This document shows, one piece after another, positions 6,507-64,000 of a stretch of 64,000 nucleotides of DNA. The stretch lies in NCBI RefSeq assembly GCF_003416885.1, contig NZ_QVPD01000004.1, positions 124,001-188,000 on the forward strand. Reading direction: 5' to 3'. The notes below the pieces were generated by a model. The model worked only from the letters and a program-made list of their open reading frames with translations, had not been told where the DNA came from and did not search any database. A program made the position numbers and the translations under genes. This stretch comes from Cognatiluteimonas weifangensis (lineage in GTDB: Bacteria > Pseudomonadota > Gammaproteobacteria > Xanthomonadales > Xanthomonadaceae). Numbering within the stretch: position 1 is the stretch's first letter; each line of letters starts with the position of its first letter.

Positions 6507-6972
6507 GTGGCGTTCCTCGCGCGCTCCTGCACGCGACCACGCCGTGGGCGTTTCGCCTCTGGACACCGCAAGCCGTCGCTGCGCGATCTCGACCTGGTCG
6601 AGCCGGTGACGGGCGGCGGACCGCCCGCGCGCGGCGGGGCTTCAATTTCCAGCGCTACGACACCACGGCGGGCCGCGGGAGCGCTTGTTCTCGTTTTCAG
6701 TGTTGCCGGGCCGGCGTCGCGCTGCGAAGCGCGACACGCGGGTCGTGTTCAGCGCCGGCGTCTGACGCGCCGGGCGATGGCCGGGCTTGCCGGCGAGCCG
6801 CTAACATGGCCGCCCCGGGGGCGGTGGTCGCGCACTGCAGCCGGAATCGCATGGGAGGGGGCTTTCGGCCCGGTTTGCCCGGTTCCCGGATGCCATGGCA
6901 CCCCGTGGGCAACTCCCTGCGAAATCAAACCTTTATCTCGCCCGGCGAGTGTAGCAGATCACAGGCGGCCCC
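6507..6972. promoter_or_regulatory. Divergent rne/rluC intergenic region, long rne leader
   Basis: These 466 bases contain no supportable gene. A -10-like TACACT on the minus strand (6953-6948) would give rne an untranslated leader of roughly 430 bases. In E. coli a 361-base rne leader mediates feedback by RNase E, so a long leader is plausible here, but promoter and fold are inferred. A GC hairpin (GTCGCGCT/AGCGCGAC, about 6715-6735) lies in the leader. The rluC promoter must also be here; I could not place it. Confidence 0.4.
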
Positions 6973-7938
6973 ATGGCTCATTCCGATCCGACCGAGCACC
7001 CGCCCGGCGCCCGCATTGTCCGGGTTCCGGAAGACCGGGGCGGCCAGCGCCTGGACAACTTCCTGCTCGGCCACCTTAAAGGCGCCCCGCGCAGCCTGGT
7101 CTACAAGCTGGTGCGCTCGGGCCAGGTACGGGTCAACGGCGGCCGCGCCAAGGCCGAACGCCGGCTCGAGGGCGGGGACGAAGTCCGGATCCCGCCGCTG
7201 CGCCTGCCCGCGCCCGGGGAGAAGGGCACCCCGGCCCGGGGGCTGCTGGAGGCGATGGAGGCCAGCATCGTGTTCGAGGATGCCCGGCTGCTGGCGATCG
7301 ACAAACCTTCCGGCGTGGCCAGCCACGGCGGCAGCGGCATCTCCTTCGGCGCGATCGAAACCTTGCGCGCGTTGCGGCCGCGCGAGTCGCTGGAACTGGT
7401 GCACCGGCTGGACCGCGACACCTCCGGCCTGCTGCTGGTGGCGAAGAAGCGCTCGGCGCTGGCCGAACTGCAGGCGCTGATGCGCGAGGGCGCGGAGCGG
7501 GCCGGCAGCCTGCGCAAGCGCTATCTGGCGCTGCTCGTCGGCCGCATGCCCGACGGCGTGATGAGCGTGGAGGCGCCGCTGCACGTGGGCCTGCGCCAGG
7601 GCGGCGAGCGCCACGTGCAGGTCAGCGCCGCCGGCAAGCCGTCGCTGAGCCACTTCCGGGTGCTGGAGCGCCGCGGCGGCCACTCCTACTGCGAGGTGCG
7701 GATCGAAACCGGCCGCACCCACCAGATCCGCGCGCACGCGGCGCACATCGGTCACCCGGTCGCCGGCGACGACAAGTACGGCGATCCGGCGGTCAACCGG
7801 CGGCTGCGCGAGCAGATCGGGCTGAAACGGTTGTTCCTGCATGCCGCGTCGCTGGAGTTCGCGCTGGACGGCCGCACGCCCTACGTCCTCAACGCGCCGC
7901 TGGCGCCGGAATTGGTCGAAGCGCTGGATCGCCTGTAG
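6973..7938 (+). CDS. rluC: 23S rRNA pseudouridine(955/2504/2580) synthase RluC
   Basis: A 321-residue pseudouridine synthase of the RluA family that isomerises three uridines in helices of 23S rRNA near the peptidyl-transferase centre. It has an N-terminal S4-like RNA-binding domain (about 22-75, RLDNFL...VNGGRAKAERRL) and the catalytic domain with HRLDRDTSG, catalytic D147. The motifs GRTHQIRAHAAHIGHPVAGD and a C-terminal FLHA segment are family-typical. Divergence from rne is the same as in E. coli and supports RluC rather than RluA or RluD. Confidence 0.95.
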   Translation: MAHSDPTEHPPGARIVRVPEDRGGQRLDNFLLGHLKGAPRSLVYKLVRSGQVRVNGGRAKAERRLEGGDEVRIPPLRLPAPGEKGTPARGLLEAMEASIVFEDARLLAIDKPSGVASHGGSGISFGAIETLRALRPRESLELVHRLDRDTSGLLLVAKKRSALAELQALMREGAERAGSLRKRYLALLVGRMPDGVMSVEAPLHVGLRQGGERHVQVSAAGKPSLSHFRVLERRGGHSYCEVRIETGRTHQIRAHAAHIGHPVAGDDKYGDPAVNRRLREQIGLKRLFLHAASLEFALDGRTPYVLNAPLAPELVEALDRL

Positions 7939-8018
7939 GGCGTGGCTGGCGCGACCGCGCGGCGGAGGGGGCGATCCTTCCCGGCGCAATCCTCACAGGC
8001 GTCGCGCCCGGCACGCGC

Positions 8019-8360
8019 CTACGCGAACAGCGTGTCGGCCCGGGCCGCGCAGATGAAGTCGTTCTCCGACAGGCCGCCGGCGTCGTGGGTGGAATAGCGC
8101 ACCACGCAGCGGTCGTAGTGCACCGACAGGTCGGGATGGTGGTTCTCGCGGTTGGCCATGTGCGCCAGCGCGTTGACGAAGGAGATCGTGCGGTAGTAGT
8201 CGGCAAAACCGAAGGTCCGGGTCAGCGCCTTGCCGTCTTCCGCCAGTTCCCAGTCGGGCACGTCCGGCAGCAACTCGCGGATGCGGGCTTCGGGCAGCCG
8301 GTGTTCGCTGCCGTGGCGCGCGATGCAGTGGGCCTGGGCGAGGGGGATGAGGTCGGACAT
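8019..8360 (-). CDS. phhB: Pterin-4a-carbinolamine dehydratase
   Basis: A 113-residue PCD/DCoH-family enzyme. It dehydrates 4a-hydroxytetrahydropterin to regenerate the pterin cofactor after phenylalanine hydroxylation; some members act in molybdopterin-related metabolism. The active-site region ENHHPDLSVHYDRCVVRYSTHDAGGLSENDF (about 71-101) carries the conserved histidines. The ATG at 8360 follows AGGAG; an upstream in-frame start would only add a proline-rich tail. It lies between rluC (convergent) and nfuA (divergent). No phenylalanine hydroxylase is in the window. Confidence 0.93.
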   Translation of the reverse strand: MSDLIPLAQAHCIARHGSEHRLPEARIRELLPDVPDWELAEDGKALTRTFGFADYYRTISFVNALAHMANRENHHPDLSVHYDRCVVRYSTHDAGGLSENDFICAARADTLFA

Positions 8361-8472
8361 GGCTGGCTCCTGCTGGGCCCGGGGAGGGGGTACCGATGCA
8401 CCCAAGCACATCGGTCGTCGCTGGCGGGTGCAGGCGCGCGATACCCGGCGCGCCTGCCGCTAGAATAACGGC

Positions 8473-9066
8473 ATGATCCAGATCTCCGAGTCCGCCCAGG
8501 CGCATTTCCGCAAGCTGATCGAGCGCGAAGACCTGCCGGGCCTGGGCGTGCGCCTGGCCGCCTATCTGCCGGGCACCACCAAGGCCGACGTGCGGCTGGC
8601 GTTCGCCGAGCCGGCCGACCTGGAGGGCGACGAGCAGGCGGTGCAGTACGCCGGGTTCACGCTCTGGGTGGACGCGGCCAGCGCGCCTTACCTGGACGGG
8701 GCGCAGATCGACTACGAGCAGCAGGCCACCGGTGGCCGGCTGCAGATCCGTGCGCCCGGGATCAAGAGCAAGGAGCCGGATCCCTCGGCGCCGCTGACCG
8801 ACCGGGTGGCGTGGCTGATCGAGCACGAAATCAACCCGCAGCTGGCCATGCACCACGGCCACGTCGAGCTGGAGGGCGTCACCGAGGACGGCATCGTGGT
8901 GCTGGTGTTCGGCGGCGGCTGCCACGGCTGCGGCCAGGTCGACAACACGATCAAGAACGGGATCGAGAAGACCCTGTTCGCCAGGGCGCCGGGGGTGACC
9001 GGGGTGCGCGATGTCACCGACCACGACAGTGGCAAGAACCCCTACGCGCCGCGCAGCACGGCGTAG
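8473..9066 (+). CDS. nfuA: Fe-S cluster carrier protein NfuA
   Basis: A 197-residue NfuA. The N-terminal half (1-100) is a degenerate A-type scaffold domain that docks client proteins. The C-terminal half (about 105-180) is a NifU-type domain with the C150-H-G-C153 pair that holds a 4Fe-4S cluster at the dimer interface. It delivers clusters to apo-enzymes, especially under oxidative or iron-poor conditions. Length and motif fit E. coli NfuA (191). A TAGAAT box a few bases ahead of the start may be its -10. The next gene begins 24 bases downstream and may be co-transcribed. Confidence 0.95.
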   Translation: MIQISESAQAHFRKLIEREDLPGLGVRLAAYLPGTTKADVRLAFAEPADLEGDEQAVQYAGFTLWVDAASAPYLDGAQIDYEQQATGGRLQIRAPGIKSKEPDPSAPLTDRVAWLIEHEINPQLAMHHGHVELEGVTEDGIVVLVFGGGCHGCGQVDNTIKNGIEKTLFARAPGVTGVRDVTDHDSGKNPYAPRSTA

Positions 9067-38558: not shown

Positions 38559-39455
38559 TCAGCGCGACAGGACGAAGGCGGTGACGATGGCCAGCAGCGC
38601 CAGCGGGTACAGGCTGGCACGGTCGAACAGGCGCGCAGCCTGGCGTCCGTCGAGCGTGCGTGCGAGGCGCAGCGCCGGCCACAGCAACAGAACCGCGCCC
38701 GCCGCCAGCAGGGCCAGCTGGAACGGCCAGCCCAGCGCCAGCGGCGACAGTCGTGGCAGCAGCAGGCTCAGCCCGACCGTCGATGCCAGGAGCACGACCA
38801 CCATCGCTCCGGCGGCGCGGAGCCCGAACACCAGCGGGATGGTGCGCGCACCGATGCGGCGATCCTCCTCGATGTCGTTCCAGTCGGCCGGGATGTTCTG
38901 TCCGCCGATTTCCCACGGCATCAGCCAGGCCAGCATCAGCGCCAGCCCCGCCCACGACGGTGCGGGGACCACCGCGAACACCGCCGCCACCGGCCCGGCC
39001 GACTTCACCAGGCCGCTGACGACCGTGCGCCACCAGGTGACCTTGAGCAGCTTGACGTACGCCACCTCCAGCATGGCGGCGGCGAACAGGATGACGAGGA
39101 TCGCGGGATTCAGCAGCCAGATGCCGACCATGGCCACCGCGAACCAGAAGCCGAACCAGGCCAGTCCGCCTTTCATGCTGATCAGGTTCTGCGCCAGCGG
39201 GTAGCGCAGCTCCGAGGCTTCCACCGCGTAGCCGGGCTTGATGCCGCCGGCGACCTTCTCCTTGTCGTCCTTCACCCCGATCAGGTCGTTGAGCGCATAG
39301 ATCGCCGTATAACCGGCCAGCGCCGTCAGCAGGCACAGTCCCAGCACCCGCCAGGGCGGGAAATGCCCCAGCCACAGCAGCGCCGCGAAGCCGGGCATGG
39401 CGATGTCCAGCACCCCGTGGGTGGAGCGCGAGAGCGCGAGGAAGCGACGCAGCAT
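38559..39455 (-). CDS. UbiA-type membrane prenyltransferase homologue (EboC-like position)
   Basis: A 298-residue UbiA-superfamily membrane protein with about eight or nine spans. The two aspartate-rich motifs that bind Mg-diphosphate are recognisable: NDLIGVKDD (56-64), lacking the middle aspartate of the classical NDxxDxxxD, and DWNDIEEDRRIGARTIP (191-207), intact. It is the last gene of a five-gene operon and starts two bases after the UbiG-like stop. The company of a cyclase, a LuxS homologue and a TIM-barrel isomerase recalls EboC, the UbiA-like member of ebo clusters, more than 4-hydroxybenzoate prenyltransferase. The acceptor is unknown; transfer of a prenyl or similar lipid to a cyclic product is inferred. 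Confidence 0.8.
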   Translation of the reverse strand: MLRRFLALSRSTHGVLDIAMPGFAALLWLGHFPPWRVLGLCLLTALAGYTAIYALNDLIGVKDDKEKVAGGIKPGYAVEASELRYPLAQNLISMKGGLAWFGFWFAVAMVGIWLLNPAILVILFAAAMLEVAYVKLLKVTWWRTVVSGLVKSAGPVAAVFAVVPAPSWAGLALMLAWLMPWEIGGQNIPADWNDIEEDRRIGARTIPLVFGLRAAGAMVVVLLASTVGLSLLLPRLSPLALGWPFQLALLAAGAVLLLWPALRLARTLDGRQAARLFDRASLYPLALLAIVTAFVLSR

Positions 39456-39457
39456 GG

Positions 39458-40168
39458 TCAGTCCTTCCTGATGAAACCGGCCATGTAGTTGATGTCTTCG
39501 CGGTCCGGGGCGACGCGGAATCTGCGCGTCAGCGGGTTGTACATGAGGCTGGCCACGGCGCTGAACTCCAGTCCCGCGGCACCGGCCCAGGCGCGCAATT
39601 CGCCGGGACGTATCAACTTGCCGTAGCTGTGGGTGCCGCGCGGCAGCAGGCCCAGGATGTATTCGCCGGCGACGATGGCGAAAGCGAAGGCCTTGAAGGT
39701 GCGGTTGATGGTGGAGAAGAACGCCACGCCGCCGGGCTTGAGCAGCGTCGCGCAGGCGGCGATGACCCGGTCCGGGCGCGGCACGTGTTCCAGCATTTCC
39801 ATGCAGGTCACGGCGTCGAAGCTGCCGGCTTCTTCCTGCGCCAGGGTTTCCACGTCCATGTAGCGGTAGTCGATGTCCAGGCCGCCGCGCTCGGCGTGCT
39901 GGCGAGCCACTTTCAGCGAGAGCTCGGACAGGTCGATGCCGGTGACCCGGGCGCCGGCCTTGTGCAACGCCTCGGTCAGGATGCCGCCGCCGCAGCCCAC
40001 GTCGACCACGCGCGGATGGGCCACCGGGATGCGGTCGGTGATGAAGCGCAGGCGCAGGCCGTTGATCGCGTGCAGCTGGCCCATCTTGCCGGCCGGGTCC
40101 CACCACAGCTGGGCGATGCGGTTGAAGTGGGCGATTTCCGCGGCATCAACATTCTGCGACTGGTTCAT
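39458..40168 (-). CDS. ubiG: UbiG-type SAM-dependent O-methyltransferase
   Basis: A 236-residue class I methyltransferase. Signatures of UbiG are strong: HFNRIAQLWWDPAGKMGQLHAIN (14-36), SAM loop VVDVGCGGGIL (54-64), VTCMEMLEHVPRPD and GTHSYGKLIRPGEL, ending NYMAGFIRKD. In ubiquinone synthesis UbiG methylates two ring hydroxyls. Here it lies between the cyclase (1-base gap) and the UbiA-like gene (2-base gap). It may be the cell's only UbiG, transcribed with unrelated genes, or a copy recruited to this pathway; finding another ubiG elsewhere in the genome would decide. Confidence 0.88.
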   Translation of the reverse strand: MNQSQNVDAAEIAHFNRIAQLWWDPAGKMGQLHAINGLRLRFITDRIPVAHPRVVDVGCGGGILTEALHKAGARVTGIDLSELSLKVARQHAERGGLDIDYRYMDVETLAQEEAGSFDAVTCMEMLEHVPRPDRVIAACATLLKPGGVAFFSTINRTFKAFAFAIVAGEYILGLLPRGTHSYGKLIRPGELRAWAGAAGLEFSAVASLMYNPLTRRFRVAPDREDINYMAGFIRKD

Positions 40169-40169
40169 G

Positions 40170-41297
40170 TTACGGCCTGGTCCATTGTTTCAGGGTATCG
40201 ATCGAGGCGGCGATTTCCGCACGCGCGATGTCGTCGACGAACACGCATTCGCCGATCGCGGCGGGCAGGGGGACGCGCTGGTGGCCGTTGCGGTGTTCGA
40301 CGCGGTCTTGCAGCGATTGCCACATCAGCTCGACATCCAGCAGTTCGAGGGCCGGCGCGATGCCGAGCCGCCCGACCAGGCCGAGGATGCGCGCGGCGTG
40401 GCCGACAGCCAGCAGGCCGCGATGGCGCGCGATGGCGGTGGAGACCAGGATGTCCAGCAGCACCGCCTCGCCGTGCAGCAGGCGGTCCTCGAAACGGGTT
40501 TCCAGGCCGTAGCTGAAGGTGTGGCCGAAATCGACCTTGCGCGCCAGCTCGTCCTCGAACAGGTTCGGCGCCAGCTCTTCCAGCATGCCGTCGATGGCGC
40601 GGTCGAGGATGTCGCCGCCATGCGCATCCTGGAATGCCGCGCGCAGGCCGGTGGCGCCGTGCCGCTCCAGCAGGCCGAACAGCTCGGCATCCTTGATCAC
40701 GGCCAGCTTGACGATTTCGCACAGGCCGTTGCGCAGGTGGCGCGGCTCTAGGGTGGCCAGCAGGCGGCGGTCCAGCAATACCCGGCGTGGCGGCTCGAAG
40801 CTGCCGAGGCGGTTCTTGCGGTCGTTGAAATTCACCCCGGCCTTGATCCCGACCGAGGCGTCGACATAGCCCATCAACGTGGTCGGCACCTTGATGTGCG
40901 GCACGCCGCGCCGGTAGCTGGAGGCCACGAAGCCGACCACGTCGGTCAGCGCGCCGCCGCCGATGGCGATGACCGGCTCGTCGCGGCGGTGGATGGGGAA
41001 GTCGTCCAGTTCGCGCAACAGGCCCAGCCAGCGCTCCACCGTCTTGCCGGCCTCGCCGCCGGGGAAGGGCACGATCCGCGCCTGGATCCGGTGATGGGCG
41101 AAATAAGCGTGGATGCGCGGCCCGTGGTGCCGGTACACGCACTCGTCCACCACCACGAAGCGGCGGCCCGCGCGCACGCGCCCCATCGACAGCAAGGCCT
41201 CGCTGCCGGGATCGAACACGTCCTCGACGTTGACCAGGTCATATTCGACCCGCCGCGTCTGGCTGACCTGCCAACGCATGCCGCTTGCCCCGCTCAC
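40170..41297 (-). CDS. Sugar-phosphate cyclase of the 3-dehydroquinate-synthase fold (EboD-like)
   Basis: A 375-residue AroB-superfamily protein. The NAD-binding GGGALTDVVGF (113-123) and zinc ligands E194 (NGLCEIVK), H259 (DFGHTFSYGLE) and H275 (LLHGEAV) are in place. The stretch YVDASVGIKAGVNFNDRKNRLGSF is more like 2-epi-5-epi-valiolone-type and EboD sugar-phosphate cyclases than like AroB. Expected reaction: cyclisation of a heptulose- or hexulose-phosphate-like sugar to a cyclitol ketone. The GTG at 41297 overlaps the LuxS stop (GTGA); the ATG at 41279 is an alternative. It sits in the middle of the operon. The true aroB should be elsewhere with aroK. Confidence 0.85.
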   Translation of the reverse strand: MSGASGMRWQVSQTRRVEYDLVNVEDVFDPGSEALLSMGRVRAGRRFVVVDECVYRHHGPRIHAYFAHHRIQARIVPFPGGEAGKTVERWLGLLRELDDFPIHRRDEPVIAIGGGALTDVVGFVASSYRRGVPHIKVPTTLMGYVDASVGIKAGVNFNDRKNRLGSFEPPRRVLLDRRLLATLEPRHLRNGLCEIVKLAVIKDAELFGLLERHGATGLRAAFQDAHGGDILDRAIDGMLEELAPNLFEDELARKVDFGHTFSYGLETRFEDRLLHGEAVLLDILVSTAIARHRGLLAVGHAARILGLVGRLGIAPALELLDVELMWQSLQDRVEHRNGHQRVPLPAAIGECVFVDDIARAEIAASIDTLKQWTRP

Positions 41298-41791
41298 GCG
41301 ATGTCCCGCCACGCCGCGCGCCGCTCCAGCACCTCGCGCGCCACGGCCTGGGCGCGGGCGAGGTCGTGGTCCCGCCAGTGACCGCACTGGTCGATGCGGG
41401 CGTAGGGCACGGCGGTCGCCGCCAGCACGCCGCGCAGGATGGTTTCCAGCGCGTCCTCGATGCGCGCGCGCCGGCCTTCGTTGTGCAGGGTGAGGTAGAA
41501 GCCGGTGCGGCAGCCCATCACGCCCACGCCGATGAAATGCCGCGGCAGCAGGCGCTGGAAGCCTTCCAGCAGGAAGTGCTCGAGCGAGTGCGATTCCGCG
41601 CTGCCGAGGGACTCGCCGGCGTTGGGTCGGCGCAGACGCAGATCGATGCAGTAGACCGTGTCGCCGGCCGGCCCCGGATGCGCGCCGCGCAGCTTGACGC
41701 TGGGCGCTTTCAGCAGGTGGTGATCCAGTTCGCCGACGGTGCCGGGCGCCCAGCCCAGCGCTTCGTGGTCGATGATGGCGCTGCCCGGCAT
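41294..41791 (-). CDS. LuxS-family protein (S-ribosylhomocysteine lyase homologue)
   Basis: A 165-residue LuxS homologue. The metal site HSLEH (H68, H72) with C136 (DQCGHW), the catalytic glutamate E71 and the catalytic cysteine C94 (GVMGCRTGFY) are all present, so it should be active on a ribosyl-like substrate. The N-terminus has about 20 extra residues before ELDHHLLKAPSVKLRG, which aligns with the LuxS start. Canonical LuxS cleaves S-ribosylhomocysteine to homocysteine and DPD (AI-2 precursor). Xanthomonads generally recycle SAH with SahH and lack luxS, and neither pfs nor methionine genes are nearby. Placement between a sugar isomerase (5-base gap) and a cyclase (overlap) suggests a pathway role other than signalling. 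Confidence 0.88.
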   Translation of the reverse strand: MPGSAIIDHEALGWAPGTVGELDHHLLKAPSVKLRGAHPGPAGDTVYCIDLRLRRPNAGESLGSAESHSLEHFLLEGFQRLLPRHFIGVGVMGCRTGFYLTLHNEGRRARIEDALETILRGVLAATAVPYARIDQCGHWRDHDLARAQAVAREVLERRAAWRDIA

Positions 41792-41796
41792 CTGTA

Positions 41797-43041
41797 TCAG
41801 GCCGATTGCGGAATCGCGGCCAGGTGACGGTAGCTGTCGTCGAGCGCCTGCTGCCAGGACTCGACGTGGTGGTACAGCTCGACCGAGCCGAAGCCGTCGA
41901 AACCGTTGTCGTTCAACGCCTTGAAGCTGGCCGCCAGATCCAGCGTACCCGCGCCCGGGATCTCGTGGAAATGCGCGATGCCGGTCAGGGTGTTGGCCAC
42001 CATCTCGTGCACCAGCGCCGGGCCGCGCACGCCGCGCAGGAAGGCGATGACCGGACGGGCGCGCTCCAGCACGTCGTAGGAGAGTCCCGGCACCGAAATC
42101 AGGTAAGTGAAGATCTCGTCGTCCAGCGGCGAGCTGCCTGCGTAGAGGCCGGCATGGTCGACCAGCTGCAGCAGCGAGGCGTCCACGCCGGCGCGGGTCA
42201 GGTGCCCGTCGATGCGCGCGCGCTGCGCGGCAGTCGGTGTGTCGTCGCAGAAGTACCGCGGATGGCGGCGATCCACCAGCAGGAACGCTGCGGTGGCCGG
42301 GAAGTACACCAGATAGCTGGCGAAATCCAGGTCGAGCTCGAGGTGTTCGGCGTCCTCGACGATCTTCAGGTTGTAGCCCTTGCGGGCGTCGGAAATGTGC
42401 AGGTAGCGCGCATGGGGAGCGGCCTTGGCCAGCGCGCCGATGTAATCGGCTTCGGAGCAGTAGGCGTGGCAGATGTCGATGTGCAGCCCGAAGCGCTTCG
42501 AGCCGACCATGTCGAGCAGCTCCAGCCCCTGCTCCAGGGTTTCGACGACCATGCCGGGCTCCGGCTCGATCAGCAGCGTGATGTCCTCGTCGTCGCGGAT
42601 CTCGCGCAGACACTCGCGGATCGAATCCGCCAGCAGCTCGCGCGGGTCCAGCGACGGGTTGCGCGCGTGGTCGTCGCGGCGGAAGCCGCTGCCGAAGGTC
42701 ACCAGGTTCACGCCCAGGCGCCGGGCCACGCGGATGCCGCGCTTGACCAGGTCGATGCGGCGCTTGCGCCCGGCCAGGTCGAGGGTCAGCAGCGAGGGTT
42801 CGTGCGGCCGCTGGGGGGTGAAGAAATGCGACGCGGTGGCCACGCAGGGGGCGGCGATGCCGGCCCGGTCCAGTCGCCGCTTCACCGCATCCAGATCCGC
42901 GTCGGTGAGCTCGAACGGGTTGAACTGGTCGCGGTGGAAGCCCAGTTCGACGCCCGCATACCCAGCCTTCGCCACCGCATCGATGGCCTCGCCGAAGGGC
43001 AGGTTGGTGAGGCCGAAGGTGCTGTAGCTGAGCTGGATCAT
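41797..43041 (-). CDS. TIM-barrel sugar-phosphate isomerase/epimerase homologue (EboE-like position)
   Basis: A 414-residue protein of the xylose-isomerase/AP-endonuclease-2 TIM-barrel superfamily, first gene of the operon. Metal-binding positions are visible: E32 (YAGVELGFH), E159 (LLIEPEPGMV), D189 and H192 (LHIDICHAYC), and H215 (ARYLHISDARKG). The C-terminal part (about 240-414) is longer than in simple epimerases and ends with HFHEIPGAGTLDLAASFKAL and FGSVELYHH, the usual closing strands, so an insertion of roughly 100 residues interrupts the barrel. The ATG at 43041 starts right at the first strand. Likely isomerises or epimerises a sugar (phosphate) ahead of the LuxS and cyclase steps; the substrate is unknown. 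Confidence 0.8.
   Translation of the reverse strand: MIQLSYSTFGLTNLPFGEAIDAVAKAGYAGVELGFHRDQFNPFELTDADLDAVKRRLDRAGIAAPCVATASHFFTPQRPHEPSLLTLDLAGRKRRIDLVKRGIRVARRLGVNLVTFGSGFRRDDHARNPSLDPRELLADSIRECLREIRDDEDITLLIEPEPGMVVETLEQGLELLDMVGSKRFGLHIDICHAYCSEADYIGALAKAAPHARYLHISDARKGYNLKIVEDAEHLELDLDFASYLVYFPATAAFLLVDRRHPRYFCDDTPTAAQRARIDGHLTRAGVDASLLQLVDHAGLYAGSSPLDDEIFTYLISVPGLSYDVLERARPVIAFLRGVRGPALVHEMVANTLTGIAHFHEIPGAGTLDLAASFKALNDNGFDGFGSVELYHHVESWQQALDDSYRHLAAIPQSA

Positions 43042-63929: not shown

Positions 63930-64000
<71 letters not shown>

Follow-up and report, generated by a model that had tools for sequence, protein, structure and literature searches.

The LuxS family is, to our knowledge, known for one reaction, and the presence of LuxS in a genome is often taken as a sign of autoinducer-2 (AI-2) signalling. 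Here we describe an operon of Cognatiluteimonas weifangensis (Gammaproteobacteria, Xanthomonadaceae) in which a LuxS-like gene stands between genes for a xylose-isomerase-like TIM barrel and a sugar phosphate cyclase, followed by a UbiG-type O-methyltransferase and a UbiA-type membrane prenyltransferase. The operon occupies positions 38559-43041 of the minus strand of a 64,000-nucleotide stretch (RefSeq GCF_003416885.1, contig NZ_QVPD01000004.1, positions 124,001 to 188,000), hereafter the window. Our analysis confirms that the five genes form a real conserved module.

Several described systems resemble parts of this operon. Canonical LuxS shares with the operon LuxS its fold, metal ligands and catalytic Glu and Cys, and is set apart as a separate clade. 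Sedoheptulose-7-phosphate cyclases of the EEVS and DDGS types group with the operon cyclase, although the annotated members seen here have other partners. The end of the ubiquinone pathway likewise pairs a UbiG with a UbiA-family prenyltransferase. Clusters of the ebo (EDB) type, EboA-F, from Nostoc punctiforme, Pseudomonas fluorescens NZI7 and eustigmatophyte plastids, offer a likeness of kind only, cyclitol plus prenyl chemistry, and differ from the window's operon, which has LuxS and UbiG families. The full set has appeared in print once that we could find: Table A1 of a 2022 study (PMC8756737) lists Xylose isomerase-like, LuxS, EEVS, UbiG and UbiA genes, in this order, as neighbours of nirS in the Chloroflexi metagenome-assembled genome (MAG) SURF MAG 42, where they are reported only in that capacity. 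In the portion of that text available, LuxS is named a single time, in the table. A literature search, with bioRxiv outside its scope and few subscription papers covered, found no further description of the five-gene set. A first-pass annotation of the window, made from its letters, had stated that a LuxS member in such a set was not described; this was nearly right, save for the five open reading frames (ORFs) of Table A1.

A five-gene module with a conserved order

Reading and translating the ORFs bears out the layout seen at first pass, five leftward genes joined by 5 nt, an overlap, 1 nt and 2 nt. The TIM barrel gene (P0001, 41797..43041, 414 aa) matches PF01261 at 140 bits (cut-off 31) and lies 5 nt from the LuxS-like gene (P0002, 41294..41791, 165 aa), which matches the LuxS family PF02664 at 101.7 bits (cut-off 27). 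The cyclase (P0003, 40170..41297; PF01761, 118 bits, cut-off 24) may start at GTG 41297, with a 4-nt overlap with the TGA of the LuxS-like gene, or at ATG 41279, which yields 369 aa and a 14-nt gap. After 1 nt comes the UbiG-type gene (P0004, 39458..40168, 236 aa; UbiG model TIGR01983, 252.7 bits, cut-off 102.95) and after a further 2 nt the UbiA-type gene (P0005, 38559..39455, 298 aa; PF01040, 90.8 bits, cut-off 34.2).

The order TIM barrel, LuxS-like, cyclase, UbiG-like, UbiA-like is found in 23 of the 24 genomes that carry this type of LuxS, ten in the Gammaproteobacteria and 13 in the Chloroflexota (the window, L019-L025, L124, L125, L034, L035 and L155-L165). The remaining locus, L036 of Desulforadius tongensis, is partial: at 6708-8486 a single 592-aa ORF joins the TIM barrel to a LuxS domain, and the cyclase follows. 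Because the order is kept in all complete loci of two phyla, and the first two proteins are fused in a third, it is close to certain that the five genes belong to one pathway, as the first-pass annotation had supposed. An ordinary LuxS in a chance neighbourhood was also considered, and is ruled out by the 23 identical orders and the fusion.

Searches at several taxonomic depths define how widely the module occurs. A LuxS protein search of 247 genomes of the window's family gave nine matches, and the five-gene order recurs in eight of them, the window included; three of the nine same-genus genomes listed are carriers. The ninth match (G051, E 1.9e-4, 28% identity, L010/L026) was dropped, since none of the five window proteins has a match there. 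Searching 369 genomes of the class with a TIM barrel alignment, scoring at most the best four candidates per genome, gave ten matches, three of them strong (the window, G574 and G363) and the other seven at 28 bits or less. G574 and G363 both have the five genes in order, and LuxS accompanies all three strong matches. In the Chloroflexota class of L035 (396 genomes) there were 12 matches, L035 included, every one in full order. A wider contig scan with LuxS kept at least 80 loci, and absence among the matches listed means little. The full operon is present in two of these, the Chloroflexota MAGs L034 and L035, and the partial Desulforadius locus is a third; at the other 77 the remaining four proteins found one AroB-like and two weak methyltransferase matches (tblastn, E 1e-3). 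In the class of Desulforadius (113 genomes) the cyclase had one strong match, Desulforadius itself (513 bits), with the next at 189 bits. A UbiA search of 398 phylum genomes returned 18 matches, the others at 45 bits or less, and six of its weak match regions had no TIM barrel, LuxS or cyclase match. On plasmids nothing matched the UbiA protein. The LuxS protein matched 27 records there; ten are listed, six of them annotated as S-ribosylhomocysteine lyases and four at unannotated places. As 22 of the 24 operons, the window's among them, were reached through LuxS, operons without it could be missed.

To delimit the module, ORFs of at least 90 codons were compared across the 24 stretches, each 6 to 22 kb long. 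The widely recurring groups are TIM barrel plus LuxS (24 loci), cyclase (24), UbiG (23) and UbiA (23), together with groups that, as far as their listed members show, are shadow frames of the five genes. Next comes an ABC-ATPase-like group (labelled by eye) in six of the 24 stretches, and no other family occurs in more than six. Within the window's family (the window and seven relatives) the flanks mostly differ, the exceptions being a TetR-like gene common to the window and L024 and a gene run common to L021 and L023, which are of one genus. By a start-codon rule, the next start lies no more than 30 nt from the preceding stop at the LuxS-cyclase junction in 22 of 24 loci, at the cyclase-UbiG junction in 22 of 23 and at the UbiG-UbiA junction in 20 of 23.

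A separate clade of LuxS with an intact catalytic centre

The canonical comparison set was the best-matching part of the contig scan, 77 LuxS proteins. In a quick tree with the Shimodaira-Hasegawa-like approximate likelihood ratio test (SH-aLRT) as its sole support and a long-branch warning for operon rows L036 and L024, all 24 operon LuxS proteins lie on one side of a branch from these 77 (support 99). Residues are numbered by what we take to be the Bacillus subtilis scheme, and the roles of residues other than Glu57, Arg65 and Asp78 are likewise presumed. All 24 proteins keep the HxxEH, MGC (MGCxTG in P0002) and QCG motifs, the metal ligands and the catalytic Glu and Cys; in the alignment, His11 and Arg39 also have their counterparts in every one of them.

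Other positions that are constant in canonical LuxS have changed, those of Phe7 and Asp78 in P0002 included. Phe7 is present in 77 of 77 canonical proteins and in none of the operon proteins (Gly in 23, Ala in one), and the same is true of Asp78 (Ser in 22, Gly and Cys in one each). Ser6, also found in 77 of 77, is matched in one operon protein (Val 19, Ile 3, Leu 1, Ser 1), where the single Ser is probably a shifted pattern match. Pro81, invariant in the canonical set, is left in four of 24. Arg65 is Arg in five of 24 proteins without gaps and in 13 of 24 when a one-residue shift is allowed, a count that hinges on the alignment. The available part of PMC2656534 ascribes to Glu57, Arg65 and Asp78 an important part in substrate binding. 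P0002 matches ten NCBIfam models, none over its cut-off, the S-ribosylhomocysteine lyase equivalog included (best 110.5 against 208 bits). Its predicted model (predicted local distance difference test score, pLDDT, 95.5) resembles Helicobacter pylori LuxS (1j6x; Foldseek template modelling score, TM, 0.84), and the 18 chains matched at E of 0.001 or better are LuxS only.

We also asked whether carriers could supply the canonical substrate. The window's genome has one LuxS and, besides it, SahH; according to the available parts of the sources, most bacteria have either luxS or sahH (PMC2233627), exceptions being Escherichia blattae and two bifidobacteria (PMC2233627, PMC2561040). The three purine nucleoside phosphorylase (PNP)-family proteins of the genome pass the NCBIfam cut-offs for S-methyl-5'-thioinosine phosphorylase (MTIP), DeoD and AMP nucleosidase, and no S-adenosylhomocysteine (SAH) nucleosidase was recognised among them. 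The SAH nucleosidase model NF004079 was over cut-off in none of the 24 operon genomes and in four of 14 controls; as LuxS was over cut-off in five of those 14, at least one control with canonical LuxS also fails NF004079. The best weak SAH nucleosidase match of each genome was then scanned against related models. In the Gammaproteobacteria, DeoD is the better fit in G000 (the window's genome), G041, G088, G114, G167 and G168, AMP nucleosidase in G082 and for second matches of G000 and G114, and the hopanoid-associated HpnG in G363 and G574. No weak NF004079 match at all was found in G183, of the same class, or in Desulforadius, G612, G744 and G806. In G793, G837 and G991 AMP nucleosidase is the best model, weakly.

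Two further observations concern the nucleosidases. The Chloroflexota loci L127, L216-L220, L224 and L225 hold nucleosidases of uncertain kind, for which the SAH nucleosidase model is the best fit, at about one third of its cut-off, and most of which are near futalosine hydrolase. The strongest SAH nucleosidase match among the 24 operon genomes is a broken gene of G762.

Taken over all carriers, the missing-substrate argument is good for the Gammaproteobacteria, while roughly every second Chloroflexota genome leaves it open. As far as sequence can tell, the operon LuxS likely does not work on S-ribosylhomocysteine. The first-pass annotation had it acting on a thio-linked ribose, a proposal not supported by the loss of Phe7 and Asp78 in all 24 proteins and the lack of a recognised SAH nucleosidase in the ten gammaproteobacterial genomes, though seven of the 13 Chloroflexota have divergent candidates; its distinction of this gene from an AI-2-producing luxS agrees with the presence of SahH and the lack of a recognised SAH nucleosidase in the window's genome.

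The cyclase groups with sedoheptulose-7-phosphate cyclases

The cyclase was placed in a quick tree of 49 rows, with SH-aLRT alone as support and five long-branch rows whose finer placement is unsure. The 24 operon cyclases form one clade (99), and this joins four annotated sedoheptulose-7-phosphate cyclases and one DDGS-like row, 29 rows in all (96); the DDGS label is our own, for a Nostoc protein beside an O-methyltransferase. Six EboD rows (100) and 13 AroB-type rows (99), with labels assigned from neighbours and similarity, lie apart from the operon cyclases, and an unlabelled row, L237, is placed weakly with AroB. The ten gammaproteobacterial cyclases form a group (92) whose neighbour is a Chloroflexota copy (80), neither support being strong. 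The best solved match of P0003 is 4p53, deposited as 'Cyclase' (316 bits), which we take to be the EEVS ValA. P0003 falls short of the 3-dehydroquinate synthase model (TIGR01357, 206.3 against 305 bits), and the genome has another AroB-like gene at G000:C1. The first-pass label of this protein as dehydroquinate-synthase-like is to be corrected, as it stands outside the EboD and the AroB rows alike. The Chloroflexi copy is listed as EEVS in the available part of PMC8756737. According to what is available of PMC5133447, relatives that group with the operon cyclase take as their substrate sedoheptulose 7-phosphate, a regular intermediate of the pentose phosphate pathway. A C7 cyclitol is a probable start of the pathway.

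On plasmids of Rhizobium rhizogenes (pC6.5b, L234) and Agrobacterium vitis (L233), an annotated sedoheptulose-7-phosphate cyclase stands beside a protein of the ROK family, and a TIM-barrel protein or sugar isomerase/epimerase is encoded close by.

The TIM barrel, methyltransferase and prenyltransferase

The predicted model of P0001 (pLDDT 94.3) has a ketose 3-epimerase fold and is nearest to the Thermotoga maritima L-ketose 3-epimerase (2zvr; Z 30.0, 2.3 A over 254 residues), with several sugar epimerases tied within 1 of Z. Glu159, Glu161, Asp189, His215 and Glu388 are invariant in 24 of 24 proteins, and we take these to be the expected metal positions. Weaker sequence matches are to the dehydratase IolE (28 bits) and to AsbF (31 bits). 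P0001 also has an extra stretch of about 125 residues (about 225-350) that separates the main barrel match from the last part of the barrel; this stretch is confidently predicted and lies outside the barrel match.

The operon UbiG exceeds its equivalog cut-off and is a second copy: a higher-scoring UbiG (272 bits) lies on another contig, G000:C41. With this copy and the AroB-like gene of G000:C1 at hand, the first-pass view of the operon stands against the alternative of unlinked housekeeping genes, a sole ubiG and an ordinary aroB. P0005 remains far under the cut-off for 4-hydroxybenzoate octaprenyltransferase (29.7 of 275 bits), which with the second-copy UbiG sets the operon apart from the end of the ubiquinone pathway, and a sequence search at E 0.001 gave it no relative of solved structure. 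Its two Asp motifs are NDxxGxxxD and DxxxD. The first reads NDxxGxxxD in 23 of 23 operon UbiA proteins and NDxxDxxxD in the five EboC proteins compared; the latter is presumably the UbiA superfamily motif, from which the operon UbiA departs.

Comparison with ebo clusters

Six plasmid-borne ebo clusters were fetched, and that of Ketogulonicigenium vulgare was scanned as a control. The EboE model NF035939 scores P0001 at 13.3 bits (cut-off 250) and the control EboE at 474.1; P0003 scores 201 bits with a model that the control EboD matches at 545 (cut-off 333). The EboC model NF035940 is unlisted for P0005 at E up to 10, a comparison in which the single control EboC itself reaches 76.4 of 250 bits. 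On the model scores, the real-cluster control and the position of the cyclase outside the six-EboD clade, ebo membership was rejected for EboD and EboE, and the kinship with ebo suggested at first pass is not supported. With regard to EboA, EboB and EboF, noted as absent at first pass, the ORF comparison of the 24 stretches shows as recurring families the five of the operon and the ABC-ATPase-like group.

Genomic surroundings

The window's genome (2.76 Mb, 45 contigs) is 99.99% complete. The operon has a divergent ndk-like gene on one side and a TetR-like regulator on the other, both labelled by eye, and its guanine-plus-cytosine content (0.688) is near that of the window (0.704), which gives no sign of recent foreign origin. 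At 63933-64000 a third tRNA of the window is cut by the window end; Rfam finds it and ARAGORN does not.

Discussion

From the module and its conservation, the clades, the kept catalytic and lost canonical residues and the gammaproteobacterial SAH nucleosidase result, all shown by computation, we infer a substrate, step order, aromatisation, product and biological role. We propose, tentatively and at slightly short of an even chance, that the operon is self-contained and that its product is a lipid-like small molecule, either a cyclitol or an aromatic lipid derived from one, which is O-methylated and carries a prenyl chain; LuxS would here have been put to new use as a ketose isomerase or eliminase. 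In this scheme a ketose phosphate, for which sedoheptulose 7-phosphate is the likeliest candidate, would be closed by the cyclase into a C7 cyclitol ketone. The TIM barrel, a metal-dependent isomerase, and the LuxS-like enzyme may pair up on the ketose or cyclitol. The former would act by 1,2-enolisation or epimerisation; the latter would use Glu57, Cys84 and its metal centre to shift a carbonyl and to expel water, or some group other than homocysteine, by beta-elimination, with an enone, catechol or hydroquinone-like ring as the putative outcome. The UbiG-like enzyme would then O-methylate the ring, and the UbiA-like enzyme could add a polyprenyl chain in the membrane. A more specific version, possible and held with considerable doubt, is that a LuxS-family enzyme left the activated methyl cycle and, with the TIM isomerase, makes an aromatic or enone headgroup from a sedoheptulose-7-phosphate-derived C7 cyclitol, which UbiG- and UbiA-type enzymes turn into a quinone-like prenylated methoxy lipid by a chorismate-free route.

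Several points weigh against this proposal. Aromatisation is a guess, because the TIM barrel is nearest to sugar epimerases and not to dehydratases. With Gly in place of Asp in the first UbiA motif, it is not certain either that the enzyme transfers a prenyl group from a diphosphate donor. In Desulforadius no UbiG or UbiA adjoins the core genes. By the start-codon rule, LuxS lies within 30 nt of the TIM barrel gene in only 14 of 24 loci, and in the other ten the gap reaches up to 409 nt (Chloroflexota), values that for L019, L020, L021 and L036 are affected by the starts the rule chose. The five proteins have correlated pairwise distances (0.76-0.89 over 253 pairs), a point in favour of the proposal that shared ancestry would also produce. 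Some carrier genomes are drafts, 76-85% complete, and for the Chloroflexota completeness is unstated. With regard to the substrate, the NF004079 cut-off is not a sure test, and SAH nucleosidase is the best model in seven of the 13 Chloroflexota (G613, G641, G675, G703, G762, G827 and G920), at 53-66 of 169 bits, with related nucleosidase models, futalosine hydrolase included, close behind. In G762 an SAH nucleosidase-like gene also lies in two pieces with an internal stop (C2:269991-270720; 128.8 and 56.0 bits).

Among other explanations, the one that fares best changes the order of steps: the TIM barrel and LuxS would act before the cyclase, reshaping or cleaving a sugar, perhaps one with a thiol or other leaving group, to an unusual ketose phosphate, and the product would be an alicyclic cyclitol that is methylated and prenylated. 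The gene order TIM-LuxS-cyclase, the TIM-LuxS fusion and the ketose epimerase fold of the TIM barrel point this way; however, reaction order need not mirror gene order, and the relatives of the cyclase use ordinary sedoheptulose 7-phosphate, as the available part of PMC5133447 has it. We regard this as rather unlikely.

A second explanation accepts the same enzymes and gives them another use: they would make an alternative quinone for respiration, or an antioxidant of the membrane, and not a secreted or signalling metabolite. UbiG over its cut-off together with UbiA recalls the end of ubiquinone synthesis, and beyond the ABC-ATPase-like group, in six of 24 stretches, no further family recurs beside the five genes. 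The operon is, however, sporadic, with eight strong matches in 247 family genomes, 12 carriers in 396 genomes of the Chloroflexota class and three among the nine same-genus genomes listed, an occurrence that fits an accessory trait better than core respiration. A respiratory or antioxidant role is in our view unlikely.

It is also quite improbable that the operon LuxS is an S-ribosylhomocysteine lyase that clears S-adenosylhomocysteine from the UbiG-like enzyme. Such a role would account for the PF02664 match, the intact catalytic residues and the model's likeness to H. pylori LuxS, and the seven Chloroflexota with divergent SAH nucleosidase candidates could have a source of substrate. Against it, no SAH nucleosidase was recognised in the ten gammaproteobacterial genomes or in Desulforadius; the window's genome has SahH, where most bacteria, by the available part of PMC2233627, have one or the other; Asp78, a substrate-binding residue in what is available of PMC2656534, is lost in every operon protein; and these proteins form a clade of their own, in a biosynthetic operon, with one fused to a TIM barrel. 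A divergent ebo cluster, in which EboC, EboD and EboE are kept and A, B and F replaced, is very improbable: although the same three broad families are adjacent or near one another in six real ebo clusters, the EboE (13 against 474 bits) and EboD (201 against 545) comparisons, the cyclase outside the EboD clade and the first UbiA Asp motif speak against it; the EboC model goes unlisted for P0005, although the control EboC too stays below that cut-off.

We return to the proposal that LuxS has been reused in the synthesis of a prenylated cyclitol or derived lipid. A LuxS clade that keeps its catalytic centre, has lost canonical substrate residues, in the Gammaproteobacteria occurs in genomes with no recognised source of its substrate and is encoded in a biosynthetic operon would be a candidate for a LuxS with another job. 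If this is true, genomes with the operon LuxS may be wrongly annotated as AI-2 producers. More broadly, the operon points to an undescribed prenylated metabolite that would be common to Gammaproteobacteria and Chloroflexota.

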